Positions 3,318-12,680 of a DNA stretch of 32,944 bases are shown in pieces. Within the stretch, counting starts at the first letter, position 1; the number at the start of each line of letters is the position of its first letter. The stretch is from a virus. The stretch is from the IMG/VR virus record IMGVR_UViG_3300035670_000829, positions 1-32,944 of that record; one strand, written 5' to 3'. The translations under genes and the position numbers were made by a program. The notes beneath the pieces are model-generated. The model ran no database searches, was not told the DNA's origin, and was given only the letters and a program-made list of their open reading frames with translations.

Positions 3318-3746
3318 ATGTCATTTGAATCTCTAAAAAAACAATCTAAACTTGGTTCTCTTACTGATAAACTGGTAAAGGAAGTAGAAAAGATGAACAC
3401 TGGTTCTGGTGGAGTAGATGAACGATTCTGGAAACCTACTATGGGTAAAGGAGACGTAGGTTCTGCAATCATTCGTTTTCTTCCTGCTCCAGAAGGTGAA
3501 GATCTTCCTTGGGTAAAAATGTATACTCATGCATTTCAAGGTCCTGGGGGGTGGCTCATAGACAATTGCGCTACTACACTGGGTCAAAAATGTGCCGTTT
3601 GTGTCAGTAACTCAGAACTCTGGAACTCTGGTAACGACCGTGATAAGGACACTGTTCGTCAGAGAAAGCGTAAGCTTTCTTACTACGCGAACATTTATGT
3701 GGTGAAAGACCCTGCTCAACCAGAAAATGAAGGTAAAGTATTCCTT
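3318..3746 (+). CDS. 32: gp32 ssDNA-binding protein, exon 1
   Basis: First 143 codons of gene 32, whose product coats single-stranded DNA during replication, recombination and repair. The zinc-binding set is present: His in YTHAF, then 12 residues to Cys, 7 to the CxxC of KCAVC, close to the T4 arrangement H-x12-C-x9-C-x2-C. Strong core matches to T4 are AIIRFLPAPEGED, SYYANIYVVKDPAQPENEGKVF. Without splicing the frame meets a TAA at 3747-3749 and would give a protein truncated in the DNA-binding core. Spliced to exon 2 the product is 322 residues (T4: 301). The leader 3254-3317 has no Shine-Dalgarno sequence and is A-rich next to the start, as expected for a gene whose own product may repress its translation. 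Confidence 0.93.
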
Positions 3747-3854
3747 TAATTTAAGAAGAGGCATATAGTAGTAATACTATATGAAAACCAAGTGAATTGC
3801 TGGAAACTCTTGTTAAGTAAACTAACTAAAACGGATTCACTGTGAAAGAAAACT

Positions 3855-3889
3855 GTTCTTTTATAAATAGATTTATAATATAAAAGAAC
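3855..3889 (+). promoter_or_regulatory. late promoter TATAAATA inside an RBS-masking hairpin
   Basis: Exact T4 late box TATAAATA at 3862-3869. Around it, an 11-bp perfect inverted repeat (3855-3865 with 3879-3889, 13-base loop) ends five bases before the endonuclease ATG at 3894. The 3' arm holds the purine-rich AAAAGA that is the only ribosome-binding candidate. A late start near 3875 would leave out the 5' arm. This is the same logic as the T4 td intron, where the I-TevI start is masked in read-through RNA and freed in late RNA. Confidence 0.65.
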
Positions 3890-3893
3890 ACAT

Positions 3894-4817
3894 ATGGTAG
3901 ATAAATTGTATTGTGATTTAGATGGAAAATACTATTCCAAAAAAGGGATAGTTAGAATAATTAAAAAGTTTGGAATAGATATCAAGACCTATTACGACAA
4001 ACATTTTAAAACTGAAAATGAGGGCATATGTCCAAATTGTGGTAAAGACACAAAATTTGCAAAATTTTCATATTCTAAATTTTGTAATTGTAAATGTGCC
4101 TCTCAATTCAATAGTAATACTTCCAATCTATGGAAAAATTCTTCAGAAGAAGAAAAAAAATCTTATATTGATAAGATGTTAAACTCTCGTTATTTAAATA
4201 ACTCAAAAGAGGATATTGAAAGAAAAAGAGTTGAAACTGTTCTTAAAAATACTGGATTTGATTCTTACTCGGAATTTGTATCGTATCATAAAAAGAAATG
4301 GTACAAATCGTTGACTGAAGAAGAGTATAATGATCTTTTTGATAAGATAACTAATTCACGAAATCAATACAAATATCATATGTATACTCTAAATGGTATA
4401 CAAGTTAGAACTCAAGGATATGAAAGATATGTTCTTGATATTCTAGTTAAGTATTTTGATAATACTAAAATTGAAGTTGATAGTAAAAAATCAATAAGAT
4501 ACATGGATAAAACTGGTAAAACTAGAAGATATTATCCGGACATTATAATTGATAAATTATTATTTGAGGTGAAATCTCCATATACTTTAAAACTTCATAG
4601 AGATAATGTATTATTAAAAATGGAAGCATCTAAAAATGCTGGTTATGTACCATTTCTAGTTGTATGGGAACCTAAAGAATCTGAAATGTGTGAAAATAGT
4701 TTAATAGAGACAATCAGCAGCCAAGACCTATCACAGGAGGTAAGGTTCAACGACTATCCGTTTATCGGAGTAGGTTATAAGCAAATGATAACCGAAGTGC
4801 TTGGAATCCATCAATAG
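3894..4817 (+). CDS. intron-encoded PD-(D/E)XK homing endonuclease
   Basis: 307 residues encoded within the gene 32 intron. It would cut intronless alleles of gene 32 so that repair copies the intron across. An N-terminal zinc-finger-like cluster has CPNC at 46-49 and CNCKC at 64-68, as in several T4-like phage homing enzymes. A nuclease domain follows with Glu177 (QGYERYV), the PD of YYPDIIID (Asp216) and EVK (Glu225, Lys227), the classic E...PD...ExK metal site. The last 35 or so codons coincide with ribozyme segments P4' to P8, and the stop codon lies in the loop after P8. No GIY-YIG, HNH or LAGLIDADG motif is present. Expression is probably late only (see the hairpin and promoter just upstream). 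Cleavage site and activity are inferred. Confidence 0.8.
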   Translation: MVDKLYCDLDGKYYSKKGIVRIIKKFGIDIKTYYDKHFKTENEGICPNCGKDTKFAKFSYSKFCNCKCASQFNSNTSNLWKNSSEEEKKSYIDKMLNSRYLNNSKEDIERKRVETVLKNTGFDSYSEFVSYHKKKWYKSLTEEEYNDLFDKITNSRNQYKYHMYTLNGIQVRTQGYERYVLDILVKYFDNTKIEVDSKKSIRYMDKTGKTRRYYPDIIIDKLLFEVKSPYTLKLHRDNVLLKMEASKNAGYVPFLVVWEPKESEMCENSLIETISSQDLSQEVRFNDYPFIGVGYKQMITEVLGIHQ

Positions 4818-4902
4818 TGGATTATGATATAGTCTGTTCTATATTGAGAAATATAGCTGAATAAAATCGGGGTTGGACTTGCGAACCAACTTGAACATAA
4901 AG

Positions 4903-5442
4903 TTTAAATTCGGTAAGAAGATCTTTGATAAGATTCTGAATGCAATGCAACCAGAATTTGAAGATGAAGCACCCATCAATCCTTTTGATTTCTGGCAAGG
5001 TGCTAACTTCCGTCTCAAGATTCGTAAGGTAGAAGGATACTGGAACTACGATAAGTCTGAGTTTGATTCTCCTGAAGCACTTCTTGATGATGACGATGCT
5101 CTAGAAGCAATTTGGAAGAAAGAATATTCACTTTCTGCCATCGTTGCTCCAGATCAATTCAAGTCTTATGATGATCTTGAGAAGCGTCTGAATTCAGTTC
5201 TTGGTATTGGTAAGGTTGCTCCTAGGTCATCTACTGCAGATGAAGAAGAGGAGTATGAATCTTATACTCCTGCGAGGAATACTGAAGAGAATGTAATGCA
5301 GGAACTTGAAGAGTCTTATCGCAAGAGTAAGTCTGCTCCTCCAGTACCTGATGATCTCAAGGCACAGTTGAATAGTCTATCATCAACCGATGATGATGAA
5401 GATGATGCTCTTTCTTATTTCCAGAAACTTGCTAGTGATTGA
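4903..5442 (+). CDS. 32: gp32 ssDNA-binding protein, exon 2
   Basis: 180 codons including the stop. In the frame joined to exon 1 it begins FKFGKKIFDKI, matching YRFGKKIWDKI of T4 gp32 directly after KVF, so nothing conserved is missing at the junction. Further matches are FWQGANFRLKIRKVEGYWNYDKS and a segment ending KSYDDLEKRLNSVLG. The C-terminal 60 residues are low-complexity and acidic (TDDDEDDALSYFQKLASD), the tail that in T4 recruits partner proteins such as gp59. An open frame also continues upstream to 4873 through the intron end, but those codons are intronic. The TGA stop abuts the stop of the convergent gene 53. Confidence 0.92.
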   Translation, partial: FKFGKKIFDKILNAMQPEFEDEAPINPFDFWQGANFRLKIRKVEGYWNYDKSEFDSPEALLDDDDALEAIWKKEYSLSAIVAPDQFKSYDDLEKRLNSVLGIGKVAPRSSTADEEEEYESYTPARNTEENVMQELEESYRKSKSAPPVPDDLKAQLNSLSSTDDDEDDALSYFQKLASD

Positions 5443-8990: not shown

Positions 8991-9710
8991 ATGCCTTTAC
9001 CAAAAATTGCTACACCAACTTATGAACTTGAATTGCCTTCAACTGGACAGACAATTAAGTATAGACCTTTCTTAGTTAAAGAGGAAAAACTTTTGGTCAT
9101 TGCTTTAGAGTCTGAAGATACTAAACAAATTACTACCGCAATTAAAACAGTCATTAAAAACTGTGTTGAAACAAAAGGAATTAAAGTAGAATCTTTACCT
9201 ACTTTTGACATTGAATATTTGTTCTTAAATATTCGTGCAAAATCAGTTGGTGAAGAAATAGAATTAAATGTTATTTGTCCAGATGACGAAGAGACAAATG
9301 TGACTGTTAAAATAGATGTTGATGATATTAAAGTTAAAACTAATCCAGATCATACTAACAAAATTAAGTTAGATGATTCTTTGATGATGGAAATGAAATA
9401 TCCTTCTCTAGATCAGTTTATTAAAAATAACTTTGATATGTCTAGTAATAATGCAATGGAGCAGTCATTTGAACTTGTTGCATCTTGTGTGGATAAAATC
9501 TATAATGAAGAAGAAGTTTGGTCTGCTGCTGATGTGACTAAAAAAGAACTAATGGATTTTCTTGATCAAATGAATTCATCTCAATTTAAAGAAATTGAAA
9601 AGTTCTTTGAGACTATGCCAAAACTTTCTCATACAATTAATGTGACAAATCCTAATACTAATGTTGAAAGTGAAGTCATTCTTGAAGGGTTATCAAGTTT
9701 TTTCGCATAG
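8991..9710 (+). CDS. 26: gp26 hub-assembly protein / tail chaperone (T4_baseplate family)
   Basis: 239 residues matching the gp26-type T4_baseplate family: MPLPKIATPTYELELPSTGQ start, FLVKEEKLLVIALES, and DIEYLFLNIRAKSVGE. In T4, gp26 is needed for hub assembly; I infer a chaperone role for the tape measure by position. A strong AAGGAG ribosome-binding site precedes the ATG. The gene ends with a TTTTTTC heptamer in the exact phase required for -1 slippage, two codons before the TAG stop, and the -1 frame leads straight into the next small frame. So two products are predicted: gp26 (239 aa) and a gp26-51 fusion of about 301 aa. Confidence 0.85.
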   Translation: MPLPKIATPTYELELPSTGQTIKYRPFLVKEEKLLVIALESEDTKQITTAIKTVIKNCVETKGIKVESLPTFDIEYLFLNIRAKSVGEEIELNVICPDDEETNVTVKIDVDDIKVKTNPDHTNKIKLDDSLMMEMKYPSLDQFIKNNFDMSSNNAMEQSFELVASCVDKIYNEEEVWSAADVTKKELMDFLDQMNSSQFKEIEKFFETMPKLSHTINVTNPNTNVESEVILEGLSSFFA

Positions 9711-9728
9711 CAATGATCCATATGGATC
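9685..9728 (+). promoter_or_regulatory. programmed -1 ribosomal frameshift site at the gene 26 end
   Basis: Four elements in order: SD-like AAGGG at 9685-9689; eight bases later the heptamer T TTT TTC at 9698-9704, in the gene 26 phase agT-TTT-TTC; the gene 26 TAG at 9708-9710; and after a 10-base spacer a 5-bp GATCC/GGATC hairpin with a 4-base loop at 9715-9728. A -1 slip gives the next codon at 9704, which is in frame with the ORF that contains the ATG at 9713. No stop intervenes. SD-like and hairpin stimulators flank slippery heptamers in known bacterial and phage sites; efficiency cannot be judged here. Confidence 0.72.
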
Positions 9729-9895
9729 TTGAATCATATTTCAAACTAAACTTTTCCCTAATGCAATACCATAAATATTCATTGACGGAAATTGAAAATA
9801 TGATTCCTTGGGAAAGGGATATTTACGTTGAATTATTAAAGCAACACATAGAAGAAGAAGAATCTAAACAGAAGCAACAAAGTAATGGCTGGTAA
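9713..9895 (+). CDS. 51: gp51-like frame, likely translated as a gp26-51 fusion
   Basis: 60 residues from ATG 9713 (another ATG at 9722). The sequence around FKLNFSLMQYHKYSLTEIENMIPWERDIYVELLKQHIEEE matches the small protein called gp51 (hub-assembly catalyst) in T4-like cyanophages, much shorter than T4 gp51 (about 249 aa). The MIPWERDIYVELL motif resembles the second domain of frameshifted tail-assembly chaperones of other long-tailed phages. Neither ATG has a proper Shine-Dalgarno sequence, while the frameshift site at 9698-9704 reaches this frame directly, so the fusion may be its main form. Its end overlaps the ATG of the tape-measure-like gene by 11 bases. A CATAAATA at 9770-9777 inside it could be a promoter for that gene (weak case). 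Confidence 0.68.
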   Translation: MIHMDLESYFKLNFSLMQYHKYSLTEIENMIPWERDIYVELLKQHIEEEESKQKQQSNGW

Positions 9896-12680
9896 TCAAA
9901 AAGTTGCTACAGAAAATATCAATGAAGTAATTTTAAGATTATTGAAGATCAATTCTGGATTGGAACTTGATTACCAGACTTACTATGAAATAATAAAGAA
10001 AAAATTAGCATTTGCTAGATTGGTAGGAAAAGAACTTCCTAGAGAAGAGGATGAACTTTTAAGAAATGAATTTAAGAGAGTTAAAAATAAGAAAGGTAGA
10101 TTTAAAGTAAAGACCTCTAAGGCAAAAGTATCAGTTTCTCCTTCTTCCCCTTCATCTGGAGGAGGGGGAAATCGACCAAGAGGAGGAAAACTTGTAGTAA
10201 ATAATTCTTTTTTCCAACAATATGTTGACCCAGTAAAAGTTAGAGACATTACAGAGAAGTCCACTATAATTTCTAGATCATCATCTGATAATTCTGAATC
10301 ATTAAAAACTTCTTTAGATAATATTAATAAAACTCTTGATTCAATCGTTAATACTCTAACGGACATTAATGAACGAAATAAGAATCAATTAGAAGAGAAA
10401 AGAAAAGAAGAAGAAAATAAAAAAAGAAAATCAAAAGAGGGTGAATTAGAGTCTAAAACTTTTGATGGAATTAAGAAAGTAATATCTGTAATTACTAAAC
10501 CATTTCAATCTATTTGGGATAAGATACTTAATTTTATTGGTAGTATAATTCTTGGAAGAGTATTAATTAAACTTGTAAATTGGATTGCTGATCCTCAAAA
10601 TCAAGGAAAGATTCAAAGTATTATAAGATTTTTTGTCGATCATTGGCCAACTCTTTTAGCATTATACTTAAGATTTGGGACGGGAATAGGAAAGTTTGTT
10701 GGTACTTTAACTAGAGTATTAATAAAGGGATCTTTTAAGTTAGTAAAACTTACAGCACAACTTGCTGCTAAAGCAGGATTAAAAGGTGCTGGAAGATTTG
10801 CTAAATTTCTTGGTGGTAGAAAAGGTAGAGTATTAGCAACTGGACTTAGCATTGCTGGTGATGTTGCTATTACTGCTGGAACTGCATATGGTGCGAGTAA
10901 ACTTTTAGGAGGAGGAGATAATAAGAATCAGCAGGAAACACCTCCCACACAAGGATTTTCTGGAGGAGGATTTGTAAGAATTCCTAAGTTTGCTGGTGGG
11001 GGTTTTGCAAACTTTAATAAGATATTTGGTGGTGCTTCTATGGGGGCAATGTTTGGACCTATGGGTATGCTTGCTGGTGCTGGAATAGGTGCTGCCGCAA
11101 GTTCTGGAGTGGTTAGTGGACCAAAAGGAAGAGATAAGGTTCCTGCGATGCTTACAGATGGTGAATTTGTTATGTCGGTTGGTGCTGTCAACAAGTATGG
11201 AGTAGATACCTTAGAAGCAATGAATGCTGCAGGAGGTGGTACAAACCAACCTCAAGTAGTTGGAGGGAAAACTTATGCTGTTGGTGGGGGTTATATTGGC
11301 GAAATCCCAAGAGAAACTAAATCTTATAGGAGTAGATTTGGTGAGGATTTCACATCTAATCTATCTAATAATCAACCTCATAAAATTTCAAACCATTATA
11401 ATTCTTTACAAAATTCTGAAAATATATTATCAGATCAAATTAAAATCAATAGATCTAATTTAAGAGAATCTGGATATAGGACAGCACCAGAATCTAGAAT
11501 GCTTCCTGCTACTAGACAATCAAGTGCTAATTTAATGAGAGTAACGGCAAGAACTACAAGCGGTTCAAGAGCACCAAAGTCTTCGTTTAATAGATATCGC
11601 CCAGGTGCAACTCTTAGAGCAACGGGACCAGGAATGCAAAACTTTTCAGAATTACAAAGATTTGTTGGCCAATCTGGAACTATGAGACCTCTTGGGACTA
11701 TGAGAGATGGTCGGTTTGGAAATCTTAAATCTCTTGGAGTTGAAATGCTTGCAGATTACTTAATGGAAAGGGGATTTGATAAAATAAATGCAATGATAGT
11801 TGCGAATAAAATTAATGAGGGTAAAAAATTAACTGGGGTTGGTAGAGAAAATTATATAGAAAAGTTAAGAAATGTGGTTCAAAAAGAAGAAAGATGGCAA
11901 AGTGGAATTGGTGGATTATATGATGCTATTGTTGGAATGGGTAAACAATCAAGATCTCAAAAAATGTCTGAAAGTTCAAGAGCAATTCTTGAAGGGATTG
12001 GTTCTGGTGTATATCAAGGTGGTGGGATTAAAGGTGGTTGGGGATTGAAAAAGCAAGAGTTTAAGGATATGCCTAAAACTCAAATAATGACTGATAAGGG
12101 CAGACCTTTTGTTGGACATAAGGCAATGAGGGGCGGAAAACCAGTTTATGTAAGAGGACCACAACCTGGAACTGGAACTACAAATCCACTTGAAGCACTT
12201 GGAAGAATGTTAAATCCAAATGCATATAAAGAAAATGATGCTCGTATTGCAAGAGAAAAGCATAAAGAAGCAATGGTAAATGCATTAGAGAATATGCAAG
12301 CACAAGGTATGGCACCTGAAGCTCAAGCAAGAATGATGAAGCAAATGGGTGGCAATTTAAAAGATGCTCAAAATGATCTAAATTATAGAAAGAAAACAAA
12401 AGCAAGAATTGCAAGTGGTGAGTTAAAATCTGGTGGCAGAAAACGTACAAGTCAAGAACAAATGAGAATAAAGATATCAAAATCTCAAACAAAAAAACAA
12501 CCACCAAAACCATTACCAAAACCAAAACCAAAATATAATCCTGCTGGAGGAGGAATGGGAGGAAGAAGAGGAAGTGGATCAAATCCTTCCAGAAAAGGTA
12601 CTAATCCACCATCATTTTCTCCAACCCATAGTTCTAAGTCTACAAAAACTGCAAGAAGCACCTTGGGAGTTAAGAGATAA
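9885..12680 (+). CDS. tape-measure-like tail protein 1
   Basis: 931 residues. Order of regions: helical N-terminus with a Ser/Gly-rich linker (about 85-105), a charged coiled coil rich in Lys/Glu (about 125-195), a long hydrophobic helical block (about 200-310, FIGSIILGRVLIKLVNWI), a Gly/Ala-rich segment (about 350-405), then GPKGRDKVPAMLTDGEFV (about 412-430), a motif seen repeatedly in phage tape-measure proteins, and a basic Lys/Pro/Gly-rich C-terminus. Tape measures set tail length and pass into the host during ejection; this protein is longer than T4 gp29 (590 aa). Position right after the gp26/51 chaperone pair supports the role. Its relation to the next, similarly built gene is unclear; one of the two may be gp29 proper and the other a hub or tube-lumen protein. 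Confidence 0.6.
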   Translation: MAGNQKVATENINEVILRLLKINSGLELDYQTYYEIIKKKLAFARLVGKELPREEDELLRNEFKRVKNKKGRFKVKTSKAKVSVSPSSPSSGGGGNRPRGGKLVVNNSFFQQYVDPVKVRDITEKSTIISRSSSDNSESLKTSLDNINKTLDSIVNTLTDINERNKNQLEEKRKEEENKKRKSKEGELESKTFDGIKKVISVITKPFQSIWDKILNFIGSIILGRVLIKLVNWIADPQNQGKIQSIIRFFVDHWPTLLALYLRFGTGIGKFVGTLTRVLIKGSFKLVKLTAQLAAKAGLKGAGRFAKFLGGRKGRVLATGLSIAGDVAITAGTAYGASKLLGGGDNKNQQETPPTQGFSGGGFVRIPKFAGGGFANFNKIFGGASMGAMFGPMGMLAGAGIGAAASSGVVSGPKGRDKVPAMLTDGEFVMSVGAVNKYGVDTLEAMNAAGGGTNQPQVVGGKTYAVGGGYIGEIPRETKSYRSRFGEDFTSNLSNNQPHKISNHYNSLQNSENILSDQIKINRSNLRESGYRTAPESRMLPATRQSSANLMRVTARTTSGSRAPKSSFNRYRPGATLRATGPGMQNFSELQRFVGQSGTMRPLGTMRDGRFGNLKSLGVEMLADYLMERGFDKINAMIVANKINEGKKLTGVGRENYIEKLRNVVQKEERWQSGIGGLYDAIVGMGKQSRSQKMSESSRAILEGIGSGVYQGGGIKGGWGLKKQEFKDMPKTQIMTDKGRPFVGHKAMRGGKPVYVRGPQPGTGTTNPLEALGRMLNPNAYKENDARIAREKHKEAMVNALENMQAQGMAPEAQARMMKQMGGNLKDAQNDLNYRKKTKARIASGELKSGGRKRTSQEQMRIKISKSQTKKQPPKPLPKPKPKYNPAGGGMGGRRGSGSNPSRKGTNPPSFSPTHSSKSTKTARSTLGVKR

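Follow-up and report, generated by a model that had tools for sequence, protein, structure and literature searches.

Genes 26 and 51 of a marine T4-like phage as one tail-assembly-chaperone gene probably decoded by programmed −1 ribosomal frameshifting

The gene 26/51 locus was analyzed in IMGVR_UViG_3300035670_000829, a record that is a genome fragment of a marine T4-like phage. "The window" denotes the whole stretch of DNA that was analyzed, 32,944 nt. The features of the locus are as follows.

8991–9710, plus strand: gene 26, with the 0-frame product gp26 (239 aa), the predicted TAC-N; Pfam PF12322, phrog_150.
9685–9689, plus strand: Shine-Dalgarno (SD)-like AAGGG, in conserved Glu-Gly codons, 8 bases ahead of the heptamer.
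9698–9704, plus strand: slippery heptamer T TTT TTC, in −1 frameshift phase and kept in relatives.
9708–9710, plus strand: gene 26 stop TAG, one codon past the heptamer.
9704–9895, plus strand: −1 frame encoding the gp51-like C-terminal domain, the predicted TAC-C; 63 aa after the slip, the stop TAA being included in the coordinates.
9715–9728, plus strand: 5-bp stem-loop GATCC-ATAT-GGATC (GATCC at 9715–9719, ATAT, GGATC at 9724–9728), with covariation.
8991–9895, plus strand: predicted gp26-51 fusion (TAC-NC) of 301 residues, deduced from the cassette elements, with a −1 slip at 9698–9704.
9885–12680, plus strand: 931-aa ORF, a probable tape-measure protein by its position and weak PHROG matches.

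The product of gene 26 matched Pfam PF12322 (T4_baseplate) over residues 9–239 (E = 1.6e-76) and phrog_150 (E = 2.8e-82), and the gene start exhibited an SD-like pairing of −7.0 kcal/mol. The 3' end of the gene reads agT-TTT-TTC-gca-TAG. In the −1 frame, no stop interrupts reading between 9704 and the TAA at 9893–9895, and the translation matched phrog_634, the "baseplate hub assembly catalyst" (gp51), with an E-value of 4.7e-30. The same frame also matched positions 241–280 of phrog_150, the last 40 of the gp26 family (E = 1.8e-5), indicating that this family includes proteins in which both parts are joined. A −1 slip at the heptamer would join 238 residues of gp26 to the 63 residues of the −1 frame, giving 301 residues with the junction S-F-F-R-I-A. 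A preliminary description of this DNA had listed the AAGGG, the eight bases that follow it, the heptamer and its phase, the TAG, a 10-base spacer and the GATCC/GGATC hairpin, together with an open −1 frame leading to a predicted fusion of roughly 301 residues with this junction, and all of these sequence features were confirmed.

The 931-aa ORF directly after the gp26/51 locus weakly matched a number of PHROGs annotated as "tail length tape measure protein" (E about 1e-3 to 7e-3), and the equivalent ORF of the Vibrio phage XZ1 matched the tape-measure family phrog_58 with an E-value of 1.4e-6. These matches and the position of the ORF suggest that it is probably the tape-measure gene.

We consider it highly probable (about 0.92) that gene 26 and the gp51-like frame are a single gene for tail-assembly chaperones, decoded with a programmed −1 ribosomal frameshift. 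The majority of ribosomes would terminate at the TAG at 9708–9710 and yield gp26 (TAC-N), and a minority would be paused by the pairing of the SD-like stretch with 16S rRNA and by the downstream mRNA hairpin. In the paused ribosomes, the two Phe tRNAs would slip from TTT-TTC to TTT-TTT, and reading would continue to 9895 to yield the gp26-51 fusion (TAC-NC). If the two proteins act like lambda G and GT, the N-domain would coat the tape measure and the C-domain would recruit tail-tube subunits, and both would be absent from the virion. We infer the slip itself, its efficiency and the chaperone action from features that can be read directly in the DNA, namely the heptamer, its phase, the open frame, the selected flanks, the loss of starts in relatives and the homology to T4 gp26 and gp51.

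The motif TTTTTTC is by itself unremarkable, because its count in the window (21 copies) does not exceed the 29.9 expected by chance, whereas its conservation in phase does exceed chance. Another T TTT TTC, also in slip phase, lies at 10208–10214, within the tape-measure ORF; it was rejected as a frameshift site and is probably due to chance, as the −1 frame closes there after four codons.

The conservation of the heptamer at the junction was assessed in loci gathered by gp26 similarity alone, using six productive viral-contig scans with divergent gp26 proteins and the records of named phages. Among the 266 T4-like loci with a readable gene end, in which the heptamer was sought in the last 12 codons, T-TTT-TT(C/T/G) was found in the same phase in 265. 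All of these 265 loci connect to the same C-terminal domain, with a −1 frame that is open and homologous, and the alignment of this domain, made from 41 members, indicates that the downstream frame encodes a conserved protein. In relatives, the gene 26 stop lies 0, 3, 6 or 24 bases past the heptamer, and the −1 frame is still open. When the loci were reduced to representatives at 80% protein identity, the heptamer was present in 82 of 82, compared to about 33 expected from codon usage (the product of the probabilities, 10^-32, is inflated by relatedness), and it was present in all 16 clusters at 50% identity. The preliminary description had named the loss of the heptamer in close relatives that keep both frames as evidence against a frameshift, and this pattern was not seen across the T4-like gene 26/51 junctions.

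The set with the heptamer spans Kyanoviridae (P-SSM2, S-CAM7 and MA01), Straboviridae outside Tevenvirinae (PX29 and XZ1), Pootjesviridae (phiM9 and RL38J1), Menderavirus, Chakrabartyvirus and Polybotosvirus, and its members include Stenotrophomonas phage Ps15, Pseudomonas phage pf16 and Agrobacterium phage Atu_ph07. In the window group, 72 of the 73 distinct junctions have an Arg codon directly after the heptamer in the −1 frame; read in the 0 frame, the residue there varies among A, G, V, E and S. The canonical heptamer is absent from Vibrio phage D495, the sole exception in the 266, and from its relative K452, which was fetched later. In both, the −1 domain is present, preceded by CTT TTC or CTT TTT, and there is a TAATG overlap; reinitiation, or slipping at a weaker site, may operate in these two phages. 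A contig scan with the D495 protein as the query found no relatives.

The gp51-like domain might instead be a separate small gene, expressed by termination-reinitiation from the ATG at 9713 (or that at 9722), with the T-run incidental. Such an arrangement would be in accord with the annotation of gp51 as its own gene in database records, with the location of ATG 9713, 2 bases past the TAG, a spacing suited to termination-reinitiation, and with the finding that in 133 of 265 loci the earliest start is an ATG at the equivalent codon. However, 64 of the 265 loci retain the heptamer and lack any ATG, GTG or TTG among the 12 codons that follow the slip, so that separate initiation cannot yield the whole domain there, and six of the 265 have no start within 25 codons or before the contig ends. 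Among the 64 is the closest relative fetched (87% gp26 identity), in which there is no start before codon 14. In addition, the −1 frame is conserved at the residues that precede the ATG, and the −1 starts lack SD pairing (mean, +0.64 kcal/mol) compared to random sites (−0.95 kcal/mol) and gene 26 starts (−3.28 kcal/mol). In the window, the corresponding values are +1.9 kcal/mol for 9713 and +0.6 kcal/mol for 9722. The preliminary description had stated that the gp51-like frame has no good ribosome-binding site of its own, which holds for SD pairing at 9713 and 9722, but the spacing of ATG 9713 after the TAG still suits reinitiation. The start-less loci rule out independent initiation as the general mechanism, and we regard a separate small gene with an incidental T-run as very improbable.

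It is also conceivable, though unlikely, that the frameshift is real and that phages retaining the ATG also produce the gp51 domain on its own by reinitiation, resulting in three products. Of the distinct junctions, 43 of 73 in the window group and 25 of 25 in the P-SSM2 group retain the ATG 2 bases past the stop. Against this, codon 3 in the window group is Met or Leu, as protein constraint alone would give, and the ATG that is kept lacks SD pairing.

For the stretch upstream of the heptamer, the anti-SD pairing in the six codons before the heptamer, averaged over the 82 representatives, was −6.42 kcal/mol, compared to −5.02 ± 0.15 kcal/mol for a null of synonymous codon redraws, none of which (0/100) was as low as the observed value. 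GAG was used in 54 of the 66 Glu codons before the heptamer (GAG:GAA = 54:12), although GAA is used twice as often in the gene body (617:1261). These results indicate that the SD-like stretch upstream of the heptamer is selected beyond the protein requirement.

Downstream of the heptamer, the stem-loop in the window is reached after a spacer of 10 bases (9705–9714). Among 73 relatives in the window group, compensatory changes were observed at all five pairs of the stem (GATCC/GGATC, GGTCC/GGACC and GGTTC/GAACC), and the double-change cells numbered 42, compared to 10.3 ± 3.1 in shuffles (0/500 reached this) and far fewer when the stem was slid along the sequence, although relatedness can inflate this count. 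Full stems were present in 59%, compared to 40% (maximum 50%) under codon permutation that keeps the peptide. Folding of the 48 bases starting 5 bases past the heptamer was compared with synonymous redraws, yielding z values of −2.87 for the window group, −5.06 for the P-SSM2 group and −1.89 for the rest, whereas controls elsewhere in both frames mostly gave 0.6 to −1.3; the window's own downstream fold gave −1.53 against shuffles. Selection on the downstream structure in general is evident in all three groups.

The structures themselves differ. The P-SSM2 group has its own 11-bp stem, of the AGUAUGGCUCA/UGAGUCAUACU type, 5 bases past the heptamer, and covariation was not significant for this 11-bp hairpin. 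The 5-bp hairpin of the window was rejected as a universal element, since full stems were found only in the P0001-matched set and in 0/31 of the P-SSM2 set.

The selected flanks bear on another origin of the fusion, in which the RNA polymerase, not the ribosome, slips on the T-run. In favor of this, a homopolymer of at least 6 T/A is present at the site. However, six Ts is short for transcriptional slippage, and slipping by the ribosome fits the selection seen on the SD-like element upstream, on the hairpin downstream and on the exact codon phase. The chance that polymerase slippage accounts for the fusion seems to us very small.

The preliminary description had proposed gp26 and gp26-51 as the counterparts of lambda G and GT; this interpretation, with the two as TAC-N and TAC-NC, is supported by the conservation, the selected flanks, the start-less relatives and the architecture of T4 gp51. 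Two marks of a tail-assembly-chaperone pair are found at the locus: the sequence architecture would provide a short form and, as a minor product, a C-terminally extended one, and the gene lies directly before the probable tape-measure gene (the 931-aa ORF at 9885). The AlphaFold model of gp26 is a confident alpha/beta structure (pLDDT 85.8), and that of the C-domain consists of three helices (pLDDT 85.9). A PDB fold search with the two models gave no significant match and, for the C-domain, none at all; the highest-probability match of the gp26 model was the HK97 tail assembly chaperone 2ob9 (probability 0.44), which is not significant (E = 1.5). In T4, both gp26 and gp51 have been classed as hub assembly chaperones; gp51 is needed for assembly and absent from the virion (PMC3004832).

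In T4, gp26 and gp51 are encoded by separate genes on opposite strands without the heptamer, in contrast to the one locus, with a predicted frameshift, of this phage; G-T frameshifting has been described as widespread and conserved "except T4" (Atkins et al., 2016, PMC5009743). The 3' end of T4 gene 26 reads GAG TTC TTT GAG TTA CTA TAA, and in its −1 frame a stop was found at the junction, with no C-domain. T4 gp26 matches the TAC-N domain and also Pfam PF12322. T4 gp51 (249 aa) resembles TAC-N plus the same C-domain: it matches Pfam PF12322 (T4_baseplate) over residues 1–201 (3.9e-52), phrog_150 over residues 3–248 and phrog_634 over 147–246, and its alignment to the profile built from the predicted fusions is colinear through the junction. 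Since T4 gp51 is a gp26-like part plus the same C-domain, T4 would have as two genes what this phage has as one frameshifted gene, and this architecture supports the assignment of gp26 as TAC-N and gp26-51 as TAC-NC. A T4-type separate, full-length gene for the long form was not found in the 32.9-kb record, a genome fragment with a single gp26 match, and gp51 here is the C-domain only.

In a tree of the N-domain, with weak support and long branches, T4 gp26 and gp51 fall next to the Straboviridae with the predicted frameshift, suggesting that T4's arrangement in two genes is derived. A wider scenario, to which we give even odds, is that the heptamer and the SD-like element are fixed across the T4 superfamily and the hairpin is swapped between lineages, so that the frameshift efficiency and the TAC-N:TAC-NC ratio are possibly tuned by lineage, with the frameshift ancestral and the two genes of T4 derived.

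The counterpart frameshift pair is lambda G/GT, and the heptamer in the window is T TTT TTC. Xu, Hendrix and Duda are said to have described the lambda G/GT frameshift and its relatives in 2004. Bacterial −1 sites of the dnaX type consist of an upstream SD-like element, a slippery heptamer and a downstream stem-loop. The cassette in the window has the same three-part layout, whereas its heptamer is different and its hairpin is short and lineage-specific. This compact cassette could be tested in cyanobacteria.

The abstract of the 2022 study by Vladimirov and colleagues reportedly names genes 26 and 51 and states that frameshifting is kept in several T4-like groups. According to two later papers (PMC10885494 and PMC12846349), Vladimirov, Gautam & Davidson (2022, Virology 566:9-15) assigned the tail assembly chaperone genes in T4-like phages, so that the remark in the preliminary description that no report was known for this phage group is out of date. 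As cited there, in some T4-like phages two genes, one short and one long, take the place of the frameshift (PMC10885494), and the finding of poly-T slippery sequences in the TAC-N genes of T4-like phages is attributed to the same study (PMC12846349). The genes 26 and 51 and the TAC-N/TAC-NC reading of that study are the same as ours; its title stresses the two-gene solution of T4, which is not the one seen in this phage. The concept of a frameshifted chaperone in T4-like phages is already published, whereas new detail may lie in the selection on the SD-like element, the replacement of hairpins from one lineage to another, the gp51 frames that have no start codon and the breadth of the set.

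On the reading preferred here, that of one frameshifted chaperone gene, the two genes that annotations of marine T4-like phages list as 26 and 51 would be a single gene. Compared to T4 gp51, the gp51 of cyanophages and vibriophages was described as lacking about the first 200 residues (Sullivan et al., 2010, PMC3037559); the cyanophage protein would be shorter by this much because the residues it lacks are those of gp26. Sullivan et al. also listed gp51 as missing in Aeh1, and at a locus putatively from this Aeromonas phage (L267) we found the gp51 domain in the −1 frame, with no start before codon 18. Neither Sullivan et al. (2010) nor the pf16 paper mentions a frameshift at the gene 26/51 locus. 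In Synechococcus phage ACG-2014e, a conserved −1 domain follows gene 26, likewise with no start before codon 18. Where the start codon is lacking, as here, automatic annotation overlooks the −1 domain, and the ACG-2014e record has no annotation from gene 26 to the next gene.

Elsewhere in the window, gene 32 (3318–5442), which encodes the ssDNA-binding protein (phrog_224), is interrupted by a group I intron. Residues 1–144 are encoded at 3318–3749 and residues 144–317 at about 4900–5442. Between the two halves lie a 307-aa ORF (3894–4817; Pfam DUF7487), possibly a homing endonuclease, and a match to the Rfam group I intron family RF00028 (54.6 bits, 4634–4856).
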